Source: Promethearchaeota archaeon
GTDB taxonomy: Archaea; Asgardarchaeota; Lokiarchaeia; Sigyniarchaeales; SOKP01
Direction: 5' to 3'
NCBI GenBank assembly: GCA_004524535.1
Contig: SDNY01000011.1
Coordinates: forward strand, 1-45,001
DNA: 45,001 bases
Made by a program: the position numbers and the translations under genes. The first letter of the stretch is position 1, and each line of letters opens with the position of its first letter. The notes beneath the pieces are model-generated. The model was not told where the DNA came from and ran no database searches. It saw only the letters and a list, made by a program, of their open reading frames with translations. Positions 3,411 through 14,200 of this stretch are shown here, piece by piece.

Positions 3411-4415
3411 TTATTTTAGCTCAATATCTTCTGGGATTTCTTCTTTTTCTTCTTTTTTGTCTATCTCTGGCTTAGGTTCTTCCGAGATTTCTTTTTTCTT
3501 TTTCTTTTTCTTTTTGGCTATCTTTAGCTTAGCTTCTTCCAAAACTTCTTCTTTCTTTTTATCTTTGTTGATTTCTCCTTCAAGCTCTTCCTTAATTTCT
3601 CCTATCTCTTTTTTTTTGGCGATCTTTGGTTTAGGTTCTTTCGAGATTTTCTTTTTCTTTTTATCGATCTTTGGCTCAGGCTCCTCTGAAATTTCTTCTT
3701 TCTTTTTCTTTTTGTCGCTCTTTGGTTTAGGTTCTTTCGAGATTTTTTTTTTCTTTTTCTTTTTTTCGATCTTTGGCTCAGGCTCCTCTGAAATTTCTTC
3801 TTTCTTTTTCTTTTTGTCGATTTTTGGTTTAGGTTCTTTCGAGATTTTCTTTTTCTTTTTATCGATCTTTGGTTTAGGTTTTTCCTTAATTATTTCTGGC
3901 TCTTTTTTTTTGTCGATCTTTGGTTTAGATTTTTCCGAAATTTTTTCTGACTCTTTTCTTTTGGAGATCTCTTGCTTAAGCTCATCCATCATTTCTTCTG
4001 AATCTGTTTTTTTTTCGATCTTTAGCTCAGGCTCCTCTGAAATTTCTTCTTTCTCTTTCTTTTTGTCGATTTTTGGTTTAGGTTCTTTCGAGATTTTCTT
4101 TTTCTTTTTATCAATCTTTGGTTTAGGTTTTTCCTTAATTATTACTGGCTCTTTTTCTTTGTCGATCTCTGAGATGTACTTTTCTCCAGGCCATTTACAA
4201 TTAATAATAACACCAGCTACAATTAAAGCAACAAAAATTATAATATATATCATCAAATTATCATTTGGAAAGAATTTCAGTAAAAAATCGATCCATATTA
4301 CCATAAACTGACCTATTGGATAAACAATTGGTTTAAAAACTGACAAGAGCCATGCCATTACATCAGCAATAAATTGCCAAATTGGGCTTCTTTCAAAAGT
4401 TTCTTGAAAAATCAT
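3411..4415 (-). CDS. Membrane-anchored Lys/Glu/Pro-repeat protein
   Basis: A 334-residue protein with no family that I recognise. The first 80 residues carry two hydrophobic segments (about 10-45 and 52-72). The rest, residues 85-334, is a highly charged repeat made of variants of KEPKPKIDKKKKKISKEP and EEPEPKIEKKKK, with no globular character. The DNA repeats with a period near 100 bp between about 3620 and 4140. Its start codon abuts the stop codon of the 172-residue membrane protein upstream (4416), so it is the last gene of a three-gene minus-strand operon. The tail may be a flexible spacer, or may bind nucleic acid, membrane or cytoskeleton through its charge; this is inference. The opposite frame (3457-4311) is a Phe/Ser-rich mirror of the repeat. 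Confidence 0.72.
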   Translation of the reverse strand: MIFQETFERSPIWQFIADVMAWLLSVFKPIVYPIGQFMVIWIDFLLKFFPNDNLMIYIIIFVALIVAGVIINCKWPGEKYISEIDKEKEPVIIKEKPKPKIDKKKKKISKEPKPKIDKKKEKEEISEEPELKIEKKTDSEEMMDELKQEISKRKESEKISEKSKPKIDKKKEPEIIKEKPKPKIDKKKKKISKEPKPKIDKKKKKEEISEEPEPKIEKKKKKKKISKEPKPKSDKKKKKEEISEEPEPKIDKKKKKISKEPKPKIAKKKEIGEIKEELEGEINKDKKKEEVLEEAKLKIAKKKKKKKKEISEEPKPEIDKKEEKEEIPEDIELK

Positions 4416-4934
4416 CTATTTTTGACCTCTCTCAAATTTAATTTTATCTCTATTGATAATAAAATCAATTAAATCATATGCCTTCAGGATCACAGTTAGA
4501 AAATAAATCCCTATATATGTTAGAATCAGTTGTTGTAAATTGATTTCTACAATTCCGAGATCTACTATTATTACTTCGATTTCAAGGGCTCCAGAAAATT
4601 TATATGACCATAAATAAAATAAATTTAAAATTATCTGTATCAGAGAAAAAATCCCTCTCCTTATTGATTGAGCTGGTGCAGAATATCCAAAAAATGCGGT
4701 TCCACTAATAAGTAAACCAAATGCGATTACAAAGAACAATATCTGAGCATACTGTTCTTCATACAATTCCAAGTCTAAACCCTCAACCTCTAACCTCATT
4801 ATCCAACTAAATGTCATAAAGGGAATTATAATTGTTATAAGAATGTATATCCCTGCGAATATTGCGCCACGAACCATGTTTTTAATACGCGCATTTTCCA
4901 TTTTCTTTTTAATTTTTTCTTTCATCACACTCAT
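4416..4934 (-). CDS. Four-helix membrane protein, middle gene of operon
   Basis: A 172-residue integral membrane protein with about four hydrophobic helices (roughly 22-48, 62-88, 94-116 and 130-155) and a basic N-terminus (KEKIKKKMENARIKN). I recognise no family. Its ATG (4932-4934) overlaps the stop of the upstream gene as ATGA. Its own stop is immediately followed by the start of the Lys/Glu/Pro-repeat gene, so the three are almost certainly translated from one message and may form one membrane complex. No catalytic motif is visible. Confidence 0.8.
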   Translation of the reverse strand: MSVMKEKIKKKMENARIKNMVRGAIFAGIYILITIIIPFMTFSWIMRLEVEGLDLELYEEQYAQILFFVIAFGLLISGTAFFGYSAPAQSIRRGIFSLIQIILNLFYLWSYKFSGALEIEVIIVDLGIVEINLQQLILTYIGIYFLTVILKAYDLIDFIINRDKIKFERGQK

Positions 4935-5515
4935 TCAAGTTCACCTTGTTCTAGTTTGGCTACTGAATATTTTTCAATCTCTACTCTAAATTCAATTAAA
5001 CTTAAAGAATACTTTCCAGTAATTATGATATCTCTAGCAATAATTTCCACAATTGGTTCATTGTCAGGAGGATTTTTATCATAATTATAACGAATATCTG
5101 TTACATTACATAGTACATCGCTTCTTACTATCTTAAAGTTGTCTCGTAATGTTAGACCGCTCTCACAATCTCCAAAATCTTCCTCTCCTTCGTAGGCCTT
5201 TATCTCGCGGCGAACGCTTTTCCCTGGGAGATAATCCTCATGATAATATCTGACATATACTTCTAACTCAAGTTCAAGATCTTCTAGGTCAAAATATCCT
5301 ACATTTTTAAATTTAAATTCAACCCTAAACTCCAGGGTTGTATCATTTACATCTAATATACGCCCCTTATAACTGTAATCAAAATCTATGTTGTCCTCAT
5401 CAGATAATATTAATACAGCTGAATATCCCCCAAGAAACGAAACTAACGACATTGTTGATGCTAATATCAAAAGCAATAATCTTGCAATCGACCTAATCAA
5501 TCGCGCTGTTCTCAT
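4931..5515 (-). CDS. Single-pass membrane protein with extracytoplasmic beta domain
   Basis: A 194-residue protein and the first gene of the three-gene minus-strand operon. A basic N-terminus (RTARLIRSIAR) is followed by a hydrophobic stretch of about 25 residues, a signal anchor or signal peptide. The rest is acidic and rich in alternating beta-strand patterns (TLEFRVEFKFKNVGYFDL, LELELEVYVRYYHEDY), as in immunoglobulin-like or CARDB-like surface domains. Two Cys (in GDCESG and VLCNVT) could form a disulfide outside the cell. No family is identified. The gene overlaps the next one by four bases (ATGA), which points to translational coupling. Confidence 0.78.
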   Translation of the reverse strand: MRTARLIRSIARLLLLILASTMSLVSFLGGYSAVLILSDEDNIDFDYSYKGRILDVNDTTLEFRVEFKFKNVGYFDLEDLELELEVYVRYYHEDYLPGKSVRREIKAYEGEEDFGDCESGLTLRDNFKIVRSDVLCNVTDIRYNYDKNPPDNEPIVEIIARDIIITGKYSLSLIEFRVEIEKYSVAKLEQGELE

Positions 5516-5656: not shown

Positions 5657-5733
5657 GTATATGGGACGGCCACATCCGTAAATCACTTATCTTCGATCAT
5701 TTTTAAGATAAGTTCATTTTTTTAACCATATAC
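5657..5733 (-). promoter_or_regulatory. Eukaryote-type SECIS element in the 3' UTR
   Basis: Read on the minus strand. Basal helix: 5726-5733 pairs perfectly with 5657-5664 over 8 bp (GTATATGG with CCATATAC) and overlaps the last codons of the selenoprotein. Core: AUGA at 5714-5717 faces UGAU at 5682-5685, giving U-U, G-A, A-G and A-U, the classic SECIS quartet. Upper helix: 5705-5712 (CUUAUCUU) pairs perfectly with 5686-5693 (AAGAUAAG). The apical loop 5694-5704 begins with a run of A, matching the AA/AAR loop motif. The 3' internal side carries a small extra hairpin, 5676-5679 with 5666-5669. Such elements recruit the Sec-insertion machinery to UGA codons. The pairing is seen in the sequence; the function is inferred from it. 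Confidence 0.8.
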
Positions 5734-6109
5734 ATTGTTTTCTTTTTTAATAAACAATAATCCGATTTTTTCACTAGTTTTAGTCTCAGCAATATATGCA
5801 TCAATTACAATACGATTCTTCTTTTTCAATTCATTTATCTCATTTTTTTCAATGTATACTTGCAAATTAGCACCGACAGATGAAATACTATCAAATTCTG
5901 TCCATTTAATAAATTCCTCTTTATCATCGAGAATTTTATGCAATTCTACCAATTCAATAGCATTGCCACAAAAAGCCATAGTTCATGAATCTGATGAATA
6001 ATAAAATATAGCAACAACAAGCTTATCTAAATCAGATTTAATGTTTTCATTTTTTTCGGAGATATAATCTAATGCAGTTTGAGTGAATGATACTTTAAAA
6101 TTTTATCAC
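5722..6109 (-). CDS. Putative selenoprotein, HesB/IscA-like, with in-frame TGA as selenocysteine
   Basis: Conventional calling gives only 85 codons (ATG 5977-5979 to TAA 5722-5724). The same frame stays protein-like upstream across a single TGA (5983-5985) for another 39 codons, reading FKVSFTQTALDYISEKNEN and then LVVAIFYYSSDS before the TGA and TMAFCGNAIELVEL after it. A eukaryote-type SECIS lies directly downstream (5657-5733), so the TGA is best read as selenocysteine. The full product would be about 128 residues with Sec near position 42. The N-terminal helix and strand pattern resembles HesB/IscA iron-sulfur carriers, and Sec falls where the first conserved Cys of that fold sits; HesB-like selenoproteins are known in archaea. 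The family call is tentative. The start is a problem: no in-frame ATG, GTG or TTG precedes the TGA. If one T of the TTTT at 6097-6100 is extra, GTG 6107-6109 starts the frame cleanly, so there is either a sequence error or a real frameshift. A pseudogene is the alternative. Confidence 0.72.
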
Positions 6110-6317
6110 CTATTTTATTTTTTTTGATTTTCTATAATAAATAAGAGTAATATATTAAACTAAAATATTTAGGTTCTATTTTTAAATTGCTAATTTTTAA
6201 GAATCTTAATAAAATTAAGGGAAATTATGACGTACATAAAAATATTTAAGAAATAAATTTTTATTGAACTTATATTTTTTCTGACTAACAGAAAATGTTA
6301 ATATTTTTTTAAAAAAT

Positions 6318-6341: not shown

Positions 6342-9179
6342 ATGATTATGGAAGAAATCAATGCACACGCGATTAATGTCGAGGAAGTAATAAAAAAATT
6401 AGCTACTTCAATTGAAACTGGTTTAACCGAGAAAGAGGCTTTAAAAAGAATCGAGATTTATGGAAAAAATGAAATTATTAAAGAAAAAGGGAAAACAGCT
6501 TTACAAATCTTCATTGGTCAATTTAAAGATTTCCTTATATACCTTTTATTTTTAGCAATTGCAATATCTATTATTATTGGATTATATGAAGCATCAAGAC
6601 CTGGTGCTGAACCTTGGTCTACTGAATATACAGATGCGATTGTAATTGCAGCAATTTTGATAATCAATGCAATACTAGGGTTCTATCAAGAATATTCAGC
6701 TGAGAAATCCTTAGAGAGTCTTATGAAAATGGCTCCTCATTTCGCAAGAGTAAGAAGAGAGGGAAAAGTTGAACAAATTGGAGCAGAAAACCTTGTTCCA
6801 GGAGATATTATTTTAGTAGAAGAAGGTGATAAATTTCCCGCAGATATAAGATTTTATAAAGAGTTTTCATTATATGCTGATGAGGCACTATTAACAGGAG
6901 AGTCTAAACCGGTTAAGAAAACATTAAAACCCGTTGATTTAGAATTAATATTAGCAGATAGAACCAATCTAGGGTACATGGATACAATTATAACGAGAGG
7001 AAATGGAGAGGGAATAGTAATAGGGACGGGTATGAACACTGAAATCGGAAAAATTGCCGGAAGCTTACAATCAGAAGAACTTGAGCCAAGCCCATTTCAA
7101 AAGGAAGTAGATCGATTTGGAAAATTACTTGGAATCCTAATAATGATAATTTGTATCGCTGTTTTTGCTATTGAATTAGTATTAGTTATTTTTTTTGGAG
7201 AATTTGGGATTCAAGAGGATGATTTAGATGAAATTATTCATGCATTTGAAATTTCAATAAGCTTGGCAGTTTCTGCTGTGCCTGAAGGACTTGTTGTCGT
7301 TATTACGGTAGTGATGAGCATAGGAATGCGAAAAATGGCAGATCGAAATGCGTTAGTAAGAAAATTAACTGCCGTAGAAACGTTAGGAAGAGTAAATGTA
7401 ATTTGCTCAGATAAAACGGGAACATTAACAAAGAACGAAATGACTGTAGTTAAGATGTTCTTAAATAATAAGGTTCTAGATGTAGAAGGTGTTGGATACA
7501 ATATAAAAGGAAATATTCTGGAAGAGGGAAAAACAATGGCTTTGAATCCAGATCTCAAAAAATTTTTAGAGATCTGCCTTCTTTGTAATAATTCTAACGT
7601 AAACATCTTAAATCAAGAAACTGGAGAAACATCAGTAGTTGGTGATCCAACGGAAATTTCCATGAAAGTATTGGCTTTAAAAGGTAAAATTGATCCAACA
7701 TTTGATAAAACCGATGAAATTCCTTTCAATTCTGACAGAAAAATGATGACATCAATTGGAAAACGCGAGGGAAAAATAATTGCCTATATTAAAGGTGCTC
7801 CAGATGTTATCATGAGGAAAGCATCTAAAGTATTATTAAATGGTCAAGAGAAGCCAATGGGCGAGATGAAGGATAAAATCTTAAAACAGAATGATGAGTT
7901 TGCCGCAAATGCATTACGAGTTTTAGGCGTTGCGTATAAAGAACTACAAACAGGATTTAATATTGATACGGTTGAACAAGATTACACATATGTAGGTTTA
8001 GTCGGAATAATAGATCCTGCTCGAGATGAAGTAAAAGATGCTATTGCAGAAGCAAAAATGGCGGGTATCAGAACAATTATGATTACAGGTGATCATAAAG
8101 TTACAGCTTTAGCGATTGGGAAACAAATCGGTCTAACAGAATCAGATGAAGTTATTACTGGAATAGATTTGGAGAAAATGACAGACGAAGAGTTGCGGGA
8201 AAAAGTTCAAACAGTAGATATTTACGCTCGTGTTACTTCCGAACATAAACAGCGAATATTAAAACGTTTGAAAGACTTAGATAAAATCGTTGCTATGACA
8301 GGAGATGGCGTAAACGATGCTCCCGCAGTAAAACGCGCTCATGTTGGTATTGCTATGGGCATAACAGGCACAGAAGTCACTCAAGAAGCATCAGAAATGA
8401 TTTTGATTGATGATAATTATTCCACCATTGTAAATGCGGTAGAAGAAGGGAGAGGTATATTTGAAACAACTAAAGGTTTTTTTCGATTCATGCTTAGCAC
8501 AAATTTCGACGAAATTTTTATGATTTTAGTAGCATATATCGTAATGAAGTTCTTTGTTAATGTCTTTCTAGCCTTACCAGTAACACCTATACAAATACTA
8601 TGGCTTAACATTGCAACAGACGGCATACCCGCTATGGTCCTTGGTTTAACACCCACAGATCCAGATGTTATGAAAGATAAACCTCGTGAGGGATTTACGC
8701 TTTTACCAGAGATAAAAGGACCTGTGTTGTTCCTTGGAATTTATACATCTATAACAGATATCCTTCTTTATTTAGCTCTCTGGACATGGCTAATCCCTCT
8801 ATGGAGCACAACTAATCCAATGTTAGCTGGATATACAACTGTTGGTTCGGATGCCCGCTTATATGCTATTAAACTGACACAGACAATTATTTTTACCAAT
8901 CTAGTTATTTGCGAGTTGATGTTCGTTTTCACCTGCACTAGTAACATTAAACCATTCTGGTTATTTCCAAATAAGCATTTATTTTGGGCTACTGGGTTAT
9001 CTTTTGCGCTCCAACTTTTAATCCTTTACACTCCATTAGGATTAGTTTTTGGAGTCGTACCCCTAACTCAATGGTATCACTGGTTTGTAGTGTTTCTGGG
9101 AGCATTCAGCGTCTCGTTATTTGATGAGATTAGAAAATATTTACTTAGAAGAAAAAGAAGATTAGGATTAGAAACTTGA
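6342..9179 (+). CDS. P-type Ca2+-transporting ATPase (type II)
   Basis: A 945-residue P-type ATPase of SERCA/PMR1 length. In order it has the N-terminal cation-ATPase domain (about 1-75), M1-M2, the actuator with LLTGESKPV, M4 with AVPEGL, the phosphorylated D357 in CSDKTGTLT, the nucleotide domain with IKGAPDVIM, the hinge TGDGVNDAPA, and M5-M10. Ion-site residues match Ca2+ pumps: PEGL in M4, a Glu in M5 (TNFDEIF) and NxxTD in M6 (LNIATDGIPAM). It should export Ca2+ from the cytosol at the cost of ATP; a Na+ or mixed specificity cannot be excluded. The region upstream is long and AT-rich, with a TATA box placed for a leaderless transcript. No partner gene is evident. Confidence 0.93.
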   Translation: MIMEEINAHAINVEEVIKKLATSIETGLTEKEALKRIEIYGKNEIIKEKGKTALQIFIGQFKDFLIYLLFLAIAISIIIGLYEASRPGAEPWSTEYTDAIVIAAILIINAILGFYQEYSAEKSLESLMKMAPHFARVRREGKVEQIGAENLVPGDIILVEEGDKFPADIRFYKEFSLYADEALLTGESKPVKKTLKPVDLELILADRTNLGYMDTIITRGNGEGIVIGTGMNTEIGKIAGSLQSEELEPSPFQKEVDRFGKLLGILIMIICIAVFAIELVLVIFFGEFGIQEDDLDEIIHAFEISISLAVSAVPEGLVVVITVVMSIGMRKMADRNALVRKLTAVETLGRVNVICSDKTGTLTKNEMTVVKMFLNNKVLDVEGVGYNIKGNILEEGKTMALNPDLKKFLEICLLCNNSNVNILNQETGETSVVGDPTEISMKVLALKGKIDPTFDKTDEIPFNSDRKMMTSIGKREGKIIAYIKGAPDVIMRKASKVLLNGQEKPMGEMKDKILKQNDEFAANALRVLGVAYKELQTGFNIDTVEQDYTYVGLVGIIDPARDEVKDAIAEAKMAGIRTIMITGDHKVTALAIGKQIGLTESDEVITGIDLEKMTDEELREKVQTVDIYARVTSEHKQRILKRLKDLDKIVAMTGDGVNDAPAVKRAHVGIAMGITGTEVTQEASEMILIDDNYSTIVNAVEEGRGIFETTKGFFRFMLSTNFDEIFMILVAYIVMKFFVNVFLALPVTPIQILWLNIATDGIPAMVLGLTPTDPDVMKDKPREGFTLLPEIKGPVLFLGIYTSITDILLYLALWTWLIPLWSTTNPMLAGYTTVGSDARLYAIKLTQTIIFTNLVICELMFVFTCTSNIKPFWLFPNKHLFWATGLSFALQLLILYTPLGLVFGVVPLTQWYHWFVVFLGAFSVSLFDEIRKYLLRRKRRLGLET

Positions 9180-11229: not shown

Positions 11230-14200
11230 ATGAATCAATCTACAAAAAAAAATAAAAAACGAATATTTATCTTTCTAATTATTTTCGTTGGATTAACCTT
11301 TACTAACATTGCTGCGATTAATCTACTTAGCTTTTCTGGTATACCATCAACCGAAGATGATACAAATGATAATATCATTCAAATAAATGATGATAAACCC
11401 AAATTGGCTGAGTATGAGAGAACGGTTGAAGATACTGGAAATGATATTAATATAACATTACACCAATCGATTAACAATATGGGTGATCCTCTATATGAAA
11501 TTGTCGATTTTAACAGTGTTGCTAACCGAAGCTTTGAAATTGATTCCCCTATAGATACTGATTTTAACTCATCATATACAGAAATAAAAGTTGAGGATAT
11601 TTATGCTCCAAATAAGACATTGGAACTTGAATCAGCTAATTCTGATACTTCTTCTAATCTGGGGTCAGGTAGATGGTTTGGTTCATTTGTAGCCCCTTCA
11701 AATTGCATAATGACAAATGCTTCTTTTTTAATTTCCAATGTATGGAACGGAATTACTATAACAATATATTTAATAAATTCAACAAATACAGGAGAACCGT
11801 ATAATCCATCAGATTTTACTCCTTTCGTAATAGGTAGTTTTAATCCTATTAACTTCGCTGGAAATAGATGGTATAGTGTCGATTTTACTGACCAATTTCT
11901 AAATAATACTTTAACATACGATAATAAGTGGTATATCGGATTAACTAAATCTGTGGGAGCTGGAGGTGAAGATCCATTTTGGATTGCAGGATGGGATTCT
12001 ACTGATAGTATCGATAATTCAGACTCTTACAGATATTCTAGTGGAACTTACACACCCTTCGCTATTGATTATCGTTGCGACATGAAGTTAGTTCCGACAA
12101 GTGAGACTGGATCAATTGATAATAAACCTGCACCTGTAGCAATAAATATGGAAATAAACGGAACTGGAGTTGTAAACGGGGATGAAAATGCTGGAACATG
12201 GTTTAACAATACAGCTTTACCAAGTTCAAATAACCAATTGAATTTTACTCTTGATGCGGGCTGGTGGGATGTGACTTGCAATATTACTATGATTCAAGTC
12301 AATTATACAAAAACCAGCATATGTGGGATTGCTAATTTTACAGTTACAGCAAATCAGCCCGTGGTTCGCTGGAATGTAACAATGAGCGAAGTTTTAGATG
12401 ATTTTGAAGATAAGTTTAAATGTTACTATATTAATTACACAATACCGTCTCATTGGGGTGATGTAGAAGTCTGGAACGGCACCACACAAATGACCAGAAA
12501 TGTAACGAGGTCGTTAGGCACGGGCTATGATGAATTACAGATATTTGAGGCCGGAAATGGTACTAACTGGTTCCTAACGGCAAACAATACGAATCTCCTT
12601 GCTGAATCCTTGGGAGGTATAGTCCATACATATGTTTCTAAAAATGATGTTAGTTTTATCAATTTTACAAATATTGTGGATATAAATATTACTTTAATAC
12701 AAAATATTACTCAAAATAATGGAGAAATTATTACAGATGTATTTGAAAATAATCCACCAGATTATGATGAGAATTATACAAGTGATCGTTCAACATTTGA
12801 AGGAACCAAAGAAATAAATGCGACAATATGGTATGTGAATAGCACGGTTGATGTATATGGACATTTTATCGTACAAGTAGGATGGCTTAACGGCACTGCC
12901 GTTGCTTTTGGAGAGAAGAATATAACAGTTTTAGGAGAGACTGAACTCACAATTGAACCTCTCGCTGTAGATATTTTCGATTCTAATGAAATATTTAATA
13001 TAACAATTAATTCTACTGATATTGGTAAAAAAGAAAAATTTGATCCTGATGAGATAATATATTCTCTTGATGATGGGGTCTCATGGAGTAGTAAAAATAT
13101 AACAGTATTTGCGATTGGACAAGCAAATATTACAATAAACTGTAGTGATGTTAATGGATATGGTCCTCAAACTATTATCATTAATATGAGTAGTCAATAC
13201 TACCATAATCAGTCCGAAACTGTCACTATTACAATTTTAGCCCTTACAGAATTGATTTTCATGGAACCTACTCAGTTTGAATATGATTCAAATGAAGAAT
13301 TCAAGATTTTGTTTGAATATAGAGATAAAATTCGAGATTCACCTGTTAACGCAGACCAAGTTAACTATAGTATTGAGAGTTATAATTGGCGCAATGATAA
13401 TATAGATAATTATGGAGTAGGGTTATATAATATATCGATACTTTGCAATGACTCTGAATTTGATGATTATGGAGAAAAAACTATTTTAGTTCATATAAAT
13501 AGGACTTATTACCATAATCAGACGGTGGAAATAAAAATTAATATTACAGGAGTGACTGATATGTATCTTGTAGGATTTGTACCTCCTTATGTGTATAATT
13601 CTGACGGAAGTTTCGATATTTTCCTCTACTTTAACGATACTTCAAGGAATACAGGAATAGAGGGTGCTACAATTGAATATCGTCTAAATAATACGGGGGC
13701 ACAATTTCGCACAGATAACTGGGTCGATCTTGGAGGGGGTAATTATAGAATAACCGTCTATTGTAATACAAGCGAATTTTATCCCTATGGAGAACCTATA
13801 ATCACTATTCATATCAACAAAACATTTTATATTAACCAGAGTCTTAGTACTTCACCCGGAGATATAACAATAAGAGGAGTGACTGATATGTATCTTGTAG
13901 GATTTGTACCTCCTTATGTGTATAATTCTGACGGAAGTTTCGATATTTTTCTCTACTTTAACGATACAGTAAGAAATACGGGAATAGAGGGTGCTACAAT
14001 TGAATATCGGCTAAATAATACGGGGGCACAATTTCGCACAGATAACTGGGTCGATCTTGGAGGGGGTAATTATAGAATAACCGTCTATTGTAATACAAGC
14101 GAATTTTATCCCTATGGAGAACCTATAATCACTATTCATATCAACAAAACATATTATATTAACCAGAGTCTTAGTACTTCACCCGGTGAAATAACAATAA

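Follow-up and report, generated by a model that had tools for sequence, protein, structure and literature searches.

The window analyzed here, a stretch of 45,001 nucleotides from a Lokiarchaeia genome, most probably (about 0.88) carries the gene of a small selenoprotein with the fold of A-type carriers, whose internal UGA is decoded as selenocysteine (Sec) by means of a SECIS element located just past the stop codon. That the gene reads this UGA as Sec is confirmed at the level of sequence, and Sec in the protein is predicted. EFsec and tRNA-Sec would decode the UGA as Sec, and decoding would be directed by the eukaryote-like SECIS just 3' of the stop, whose lower stem would extend into the last codons. 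We could not find a description of such proteins in the literature, and they appear to form a previously undescribed family of Sec-only selenoproteins.

Reading frame, relatives and selection

On the minus strand of the window the frame is open from 6102 to 5722 apart from a single TGA at 5983-5985, and it closes with a TAA at 5722-5724. Counted from an invariant TTT codon (6097-6099), the coding sequence (5722..6099, minus) comprises 125 residues plus the TAA stop, with the UGA codon as residue 39. The translation, NFKVSFTQTALDYISEKNENIKSDLDKLVVAIFYYSSDS-Sec-TMAFCGNAIELVELHKILDDKEEFIKWTEFDSISSVGANLQVYIEKNEINELKKKNRIVIDAYIAETKTSEKIGLLFIKKENNVYG, begins with FKVSFTQTALDYI, runs through ...YYSSDS-Sec-TMAFCGNAIEL... 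and ends with NVYG; around Sec the peptide reads YYSSDS-Sec-TMAFCGNAIELVELHK. The sequence-only reading had proposed a frame ending at 5722 that remains protein-like across this TGA, with the context SSDS-Sec-TMAFCGNA. Coordinates and codon usage agree with this proposal, and the context is present in the read-through translation. The codon-usage score is above zero on either side of the TGA, and this frame scores highest. Of the proposed size of about 128 residues with Sec near position 42, the frame of Sec stood and the start and length did not. The start had been placed at 6109, where the GTG (6107-6109) is one base out of frame and overlaps a Shine-Dalgarno-like GGTGAT.

A first search covering 58 related genomes found the selenoprotein gene in 14 of them, with the TGA within every copy. 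In a profile search through 228 genomes of the phylum (Asgard), homologues were detected in 26 genomes of 8 genera. All of them belong to the window's own family and all carry the TGA, as do the second, divergent copies present in five of these genomes. Four aligned divergent paralogues share 25-34% identity with the relative L004, and the TGA column is shared in all four examined. Hence the relatives align across the TGA, which occupies the same column in every family copy examined (26 genomes plus divergent paralogues), and this bears out the earlier view that the pattern exceeds chance. No version with Cys or another residue at the Sec column occurred among the homologues in the 228 Asgard genomes. 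A scan of genome contigs with a pattern spelling Cys at this column found no Cys relative. A second scan, with the C-terminal half, gave four records that carry names, all of them MAGs labelled Candidatus Lokiarchaeota or Lokiarchaeia. No relative turned up when viral contigs, phages and plasmids were scanned. A hit in G073 (E 6.5e-4, with two TAA) was treated as chance. At seven syntenic loci without the gene (G018, G033, G031, G027, G007, G015 and G008) the downstream neighbors are in place with no gene remnant alongside; judging from synteny, the gene has been lost cleanly there.

Random decay on both sides of the TGA, named beforehand as the finding that would speak against a selenoprotein, was not seen. 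In 13 pairs of relatives pooled pN/pS was 0.30 for the part ahead of the UGA and 0.23 for the part following it, and pairwise dN/dS was mostly between 0.1 and 0.3. Because purifying selection acts on either side of the UGA, the two parts represent a maintained protein rather than two chance frames. Standard gene calling, as anticipated, yields only the 85 codons after the UGA, from the ATG at 5979. An ordinary gene of this extent, preceded by a chance frame or a decayed 5'-end, would also agree with the window copy having no standard start in frame ahead of the TGA. However, the residues encoded ahead of the TGA are conserved and evolve under purifying selection, the TGA is invariant, the ATG following it is not conserved (e.g. 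in L010, L013 and L014), and the SECIS shows compensatory changes. The probability of this explanation is negligible.

The SECIS element and the Sec machinery

The SECIS element (5657..5733, minus) is supported by covariation, by comparison with shuffled sequences and by a covariance model match. Its core consists of AUGA (5714-5717) and GA (5683-5684), separated by a 9-bp helix (5705-5713 with 5685-5693) that carries an A-rich apical loop of 11 nt (5694-5704). A second hairpin follows (5676-5679 with 5666-5669), and an 8-bp lower stem, GUAUAUGG (5726-5733) with CCAUAUAC (5657-5664), encloses the element. All complete copies in the family share AUGA, a helix of 8-9 bp, an A-rich apical loop, GA and then a small hairpin within approximately 40 nt of the stop; the paralogue L016 has ACGA instead of AUGA. 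In 22 aligned copies 93% of the cells are paired, and each of the 13 tested pairs shows changes on both sides, so that the earlier claim of a SECIS directly downstream of the gene is substantiated by an eukaryote-like element with compensatory change throughout. On none of five measures did any of 500 shuffles come up to these copies, and with the partner shifted by one base the pairing fell to about 50%. For the window copy including the lower stem the MFE z-score is -3.63 (0/200 shuffles). The covariance model matches the window at 5663-5721 with 75 bits, a score for one of its own training sequences.

In 25 copies matching 5'- and 3'-flanks pair better than swapped ones (154/20,000 permutations, a figure in which kinship is not controlled), which concerns the lower stem. 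Its 5'-strand coincides with the last codons (V-Y-G), and conservation of the VYG tail may partly reflect an RNA constraint. In one copy (L005) the tail sequence persists past an earlier TAA, and in two others (L058 and L059) a different, non-coding sequence pairs in place of the tail.

A search with Rfam at gathering and at relaxed thresholds revealed no SECIS or other RNA in the window. We ran the covariance model built from the family's SECIS elements over 436 kb of the same genome. The best match after its own site lies 10 nt past the stop of SelD (E 3e-4), and the next one is located where a short VhuU-like selenoprotein gene ends, with its AUGA overlapping the stop codon; here the E-value is weak (0.058) and the position is right. 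SelD and VhuU-like proteins are families known among Asgard selenoproteins, and overlap of AUGA with the stop codon has been reported for Lokiarchaeia (PMC11227280). The VhuU-like gene (L090:12965-13113, plus strand; SECIS at 13106-13164) encodes ...CYDCULSCAAH... and is situated in a hydrogenase cluster.

The Sec genes that the sequence-only reading had listed for a check are present in the genome. SepSecS (C188:20404-21705) and EFsec (C188:25057-25968) lie on one contig, SelD on C64 is of the Sec type and contains a TGA of its own (FGUSCKLG), and a PSTK-like gene on C148 falls short of the curated cut-off (144 against 290 bits). The tRNA-Sec was read by eye beside SepSecS (L025:1880-2032, minus strand, i.e. 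on C188). It has an anticodon loop CTTCAAA with anticodon UCA and a 9-bp acceptor stem, GGCCCTTGA/TCGAGGGCC, and it was aligned with the tRNA-Sec genes of relatives that Rfam recognizes. In this genome tRNA-Sec was called neither by Rfam nor by ARAGORN, which is probably explained by insertions, probable introns, that it has in its D and T loops. The tRNA-Sec genes of G004 and G020 also have an insertion in the D loop and that of G011 has insertions in both loops; those of G019 and G009 have none.

It is the frame alone that is observed, and the amino acid is predicted. The UGA might thus be read as something other than Sec, such as Trp, or be passed by general readthrough or under a variant code. 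Against this, TGA is otherwise an ordinary terminator, closing 28 of 211 long ORFs, each gene of the family holds one TGA in a single column near an invariant Cys, and the SECIS is accompanied by a full set of Sec genes. We regard a reading other than Sec as very improbable.

Start of translation

From an in-frame TAA at 6103-6105 down to the Sec codon, the frame of the window copy contains no ATG, GTG or TTG. The TTT codon is preceded by AAT (6100-6102) and this in turn by that TAA. A Shine-Dalgarno-like GGTGAT (6105..6110, minus) contains the out-of-frame GTG mentioned above, and the distance from its GGTG to the TTT codon is 7 nt. Comparison of the copies L001-L014 and L045-L059 indicates that approximately half of the family, including the window copy, is devoid of a standard start codon. 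In the main group the codon ahead of the invariant TTT-A[AG][AG] is TTG, ATG or GTG in 13 copies, and in the remaining ones it is AAT (window), TTT, CTG, TAG, ATA, GTA, TCG or CAT. Since selection on the protein is evident, the missing start codons were not taken as a sign of pseudogenes.

Translation may begin at a conserved non-AUG codon, UUU or, in two copies, the AUU replacing it, 7 nt past GGTG. The GGTG stands at this distance in most copies. For 28 genes of this genome that are led by GGTG, the most frequent distance to the start is 7 nt, and a distance of 4 nt occurs in none. Of the four divergent paralogues examined, three (L015, L016 and L018) have an ATG or TTG start in the column of the TTT, and in one copy (L006) an in-frame stop immediately precedes UUU. 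All 24 copies having Phe at this position use TTT for it, a figure that overstates the evidence as the copies are related; the other Phe codons of these genes are 109 TTT versus 78 TTC. Initiation at UUU nevertheless seems rather doubtful to us. The frequent TTG and ATG one codon upstream speak for a start at that codon in some members at least.

Two frameshift routes were also considered. A +1 shift from the GTG at 6109 (GTG ATA AAA TTT TAA) would agree with most copies, in which a GTG stands 3 codons ahead of xTT TAA, but it is not general: L045 lacks such a GTG, and it is spaced otherwise in L009 and L013. A -1 slip on U UUA AAA was rejected since the frame it needs has no start codon. The absent start codons pose a separate and testable question on initiation in Lokiarchaeia. 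If UUU does serve as the start, one short gene breaks two decoding rules, at its start codon and at its UGA.

Fold, possible role and known families

The sequence-only reading had suggested a HesB/IscA-like protein, and this applies to the fold and not to family membership. Two AlphaFold models were computed, of the window protein (pLDDT 80.5) and of L004 (pLDDT 85.9), and in both of them the order of strands and helices is that of IscA. The best Foldseek match in the PDB was SufA for both models, with a probability of 0.95 for the window protein and 1.00 for L004. For L004, IscA ranked second (0.99) and nothing else exceeded 0.21, with TM-scores to SufA and IscA of only about 0.5. In the models Sec is located in the loop between strands 2 and 3, at the position of the first conserved Cys of IscA. 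The models thus support an A-type-carrier (HesB/IscA/SufA) fold for the predicted protein. Sequence searches against Pfam, NCBIfam and the PDB assigned no family at cut-off. No member reaches the gathering score of PF01521, to which a single member gives a match at all (E 0.16), and profile comparison with E. coli IscA, SufA and ErpA by hhalign was not significant. The C-terminal CxC of the A-type carriers is absent in all members, which possess instead an additional invariant Cys five residues past Sec. Because neither the sequence match nor the three-Cys feature of A-type carriers was found, we do not file the protein among them, and its biochemical role, including that of a carrier, is predicted.

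A Cys-containing Asgard family (L121-L136) weakly matches both PF01521 (9.5e-6) and NF041239 (1.4e-5). It is possibly a Cys relative of the selenoprotein: hhalign placed Sec on its invariant Cys, with a single-comparison E-value of 5.5e-4 and a probability of only 30%. In this family the invariant Cys is mostly found within EEPC, the C-terminus carries CK, and the copy in G029 is encoded about 3 kb from SepSecS.

The selenolate and the Cys five residues on might work together: they could serve as ligands for a metal ion or an Fe-S cluster, or they could make up a redox pair of the selenenylsulfide type. A role in Fe-S or metal handling is conceivable at somewhat under even odds. Slightly less credence is given to a redox enzyme without any role in Fe-S handling, whose IscA-like scaffold would carry Sec and Cys (U-x4-C) as a selenenylsulfide pair. 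U-x4-C is the sole invariant Sec/Cys pair, a C-terminal Cys that could complete an A-type cluster site is lacking, and a redox function is assumed for most selenoproteins that are still uncharacterised (PMC13188914). On the other hand, Sec sits in the loop where A-type carriers hold a cluster ligand, the UxxC or CxxU spacing of Trx-like proteins is missing, and no redox partner is an immediate constant neighbor, a flavodoxin-like gene being found further away. A role that is neither Fe-S or metal handling nor purely redox appears distinctly unlikely.

The locus usually consists of a divergent gene for a P-type cation (Ca2+-type) ATPase, which is a conserved neighbor (6342..9179, plus), followed by the selenoprotein gene and by c1-c3 on the strand of the latter. 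The downstream neighbor c1 (4931..5515, minus), present at 19 of 24 loci compared, encodes an N-terminal hydrophobic segment and a probable extracytoplasmic beta domain. The product of c2 (4416..4934, minus) is a small protein with several hydrophobic stretches, and that of c3 (3411..4415, minus) has N-terminal hydrophobic stretches followed by a Lys/Glu-rich tail. None of the three matches a Pfam family, and all look like membrane-associated proteins. Their functional tie to the selenoprotein is uncertain, since the 206-bp gap ahead of c1 contains the SECIS, and c1-c3 persist where the selenoprotein is missing. The ATPase and the membrane proteins do not point to Fe-S assembly. At five loci of two genera (L083, L084, L029, L068 and L078) a convergent gene for aconitase, an Fe-S enzyme, adjoins on the opposite strand; as a hint to Fe-S this is suggestive only. 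TFIIB, radical SAM and flavodoxin-like neighbors were not accepted as functional links.

TIGR01911 (HesB_rel_seleno), described for Methanococcales, is likewise a family of small HesB/IscA-related archaeal proteins with a SECIS in the 3'-UTR, and its Sec occupies the first conserved Cys of the domain. Our family could represent an Asgard branch of TIGR01911 or of NF041239 (CC/Se motif family (seleno)protein) too divergent for these models. It is predicted to share the fold class, with Sec probably at the corresponding Cys, weak matches occur among its members (best E-values of 0.053 for TIGR01911, in one of 27 members, and 0.16 for NF041239), and the relation to NF041239 would run via the Cys-containing family L121-L136. 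However, no member reaches the cut-off of either model, and TIGR01911 exceeds its cut-off in none of the Asgard genomes searched. The Sec motif is U-T-x-x-F-C-G-N instead of the UxGP listed for TIGR01911 (PMC13188914). The SECIS elements differ as well, being of the methanogen GAA_A type in TIGR01911 and of the eukaryote-like AUGA/GA type in the Asgard family. Altogether, membership in either family is unlikely.

Among known prokaryotes, Asgard archaea stand closest to the eukaryotes, and the origin of eukaryotic Sec decoding is judged mainly from the eukaryote-like SECIS elements they possess. The family described here has the type I eukaryote-like SECIS (AUGA...GA, A-rich apical loop) and the decoding machinery in common with the known Asgard selenoproteins, whereas their protein families are unrelated to it. 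These comprise SelD, FrhA/VhuU, HdrA, FrhD, Prx-like, AhpF-N and DsbA-like proteins (Huang et al. 2024, PMC11227280). The survey in question used previously reported families only, with HesB absent from its main text (PMC11227280); searching in this way, it could not have detected a family that lacks characterised Cys homologues. Our case shows that such selenoprotein families exist. The 22 SECIS sequences it provides covary strongly, and its placement of Sec on an IscA-like fold allows the idea of selenium acting in Fe-S or metal handling to be put to the test.
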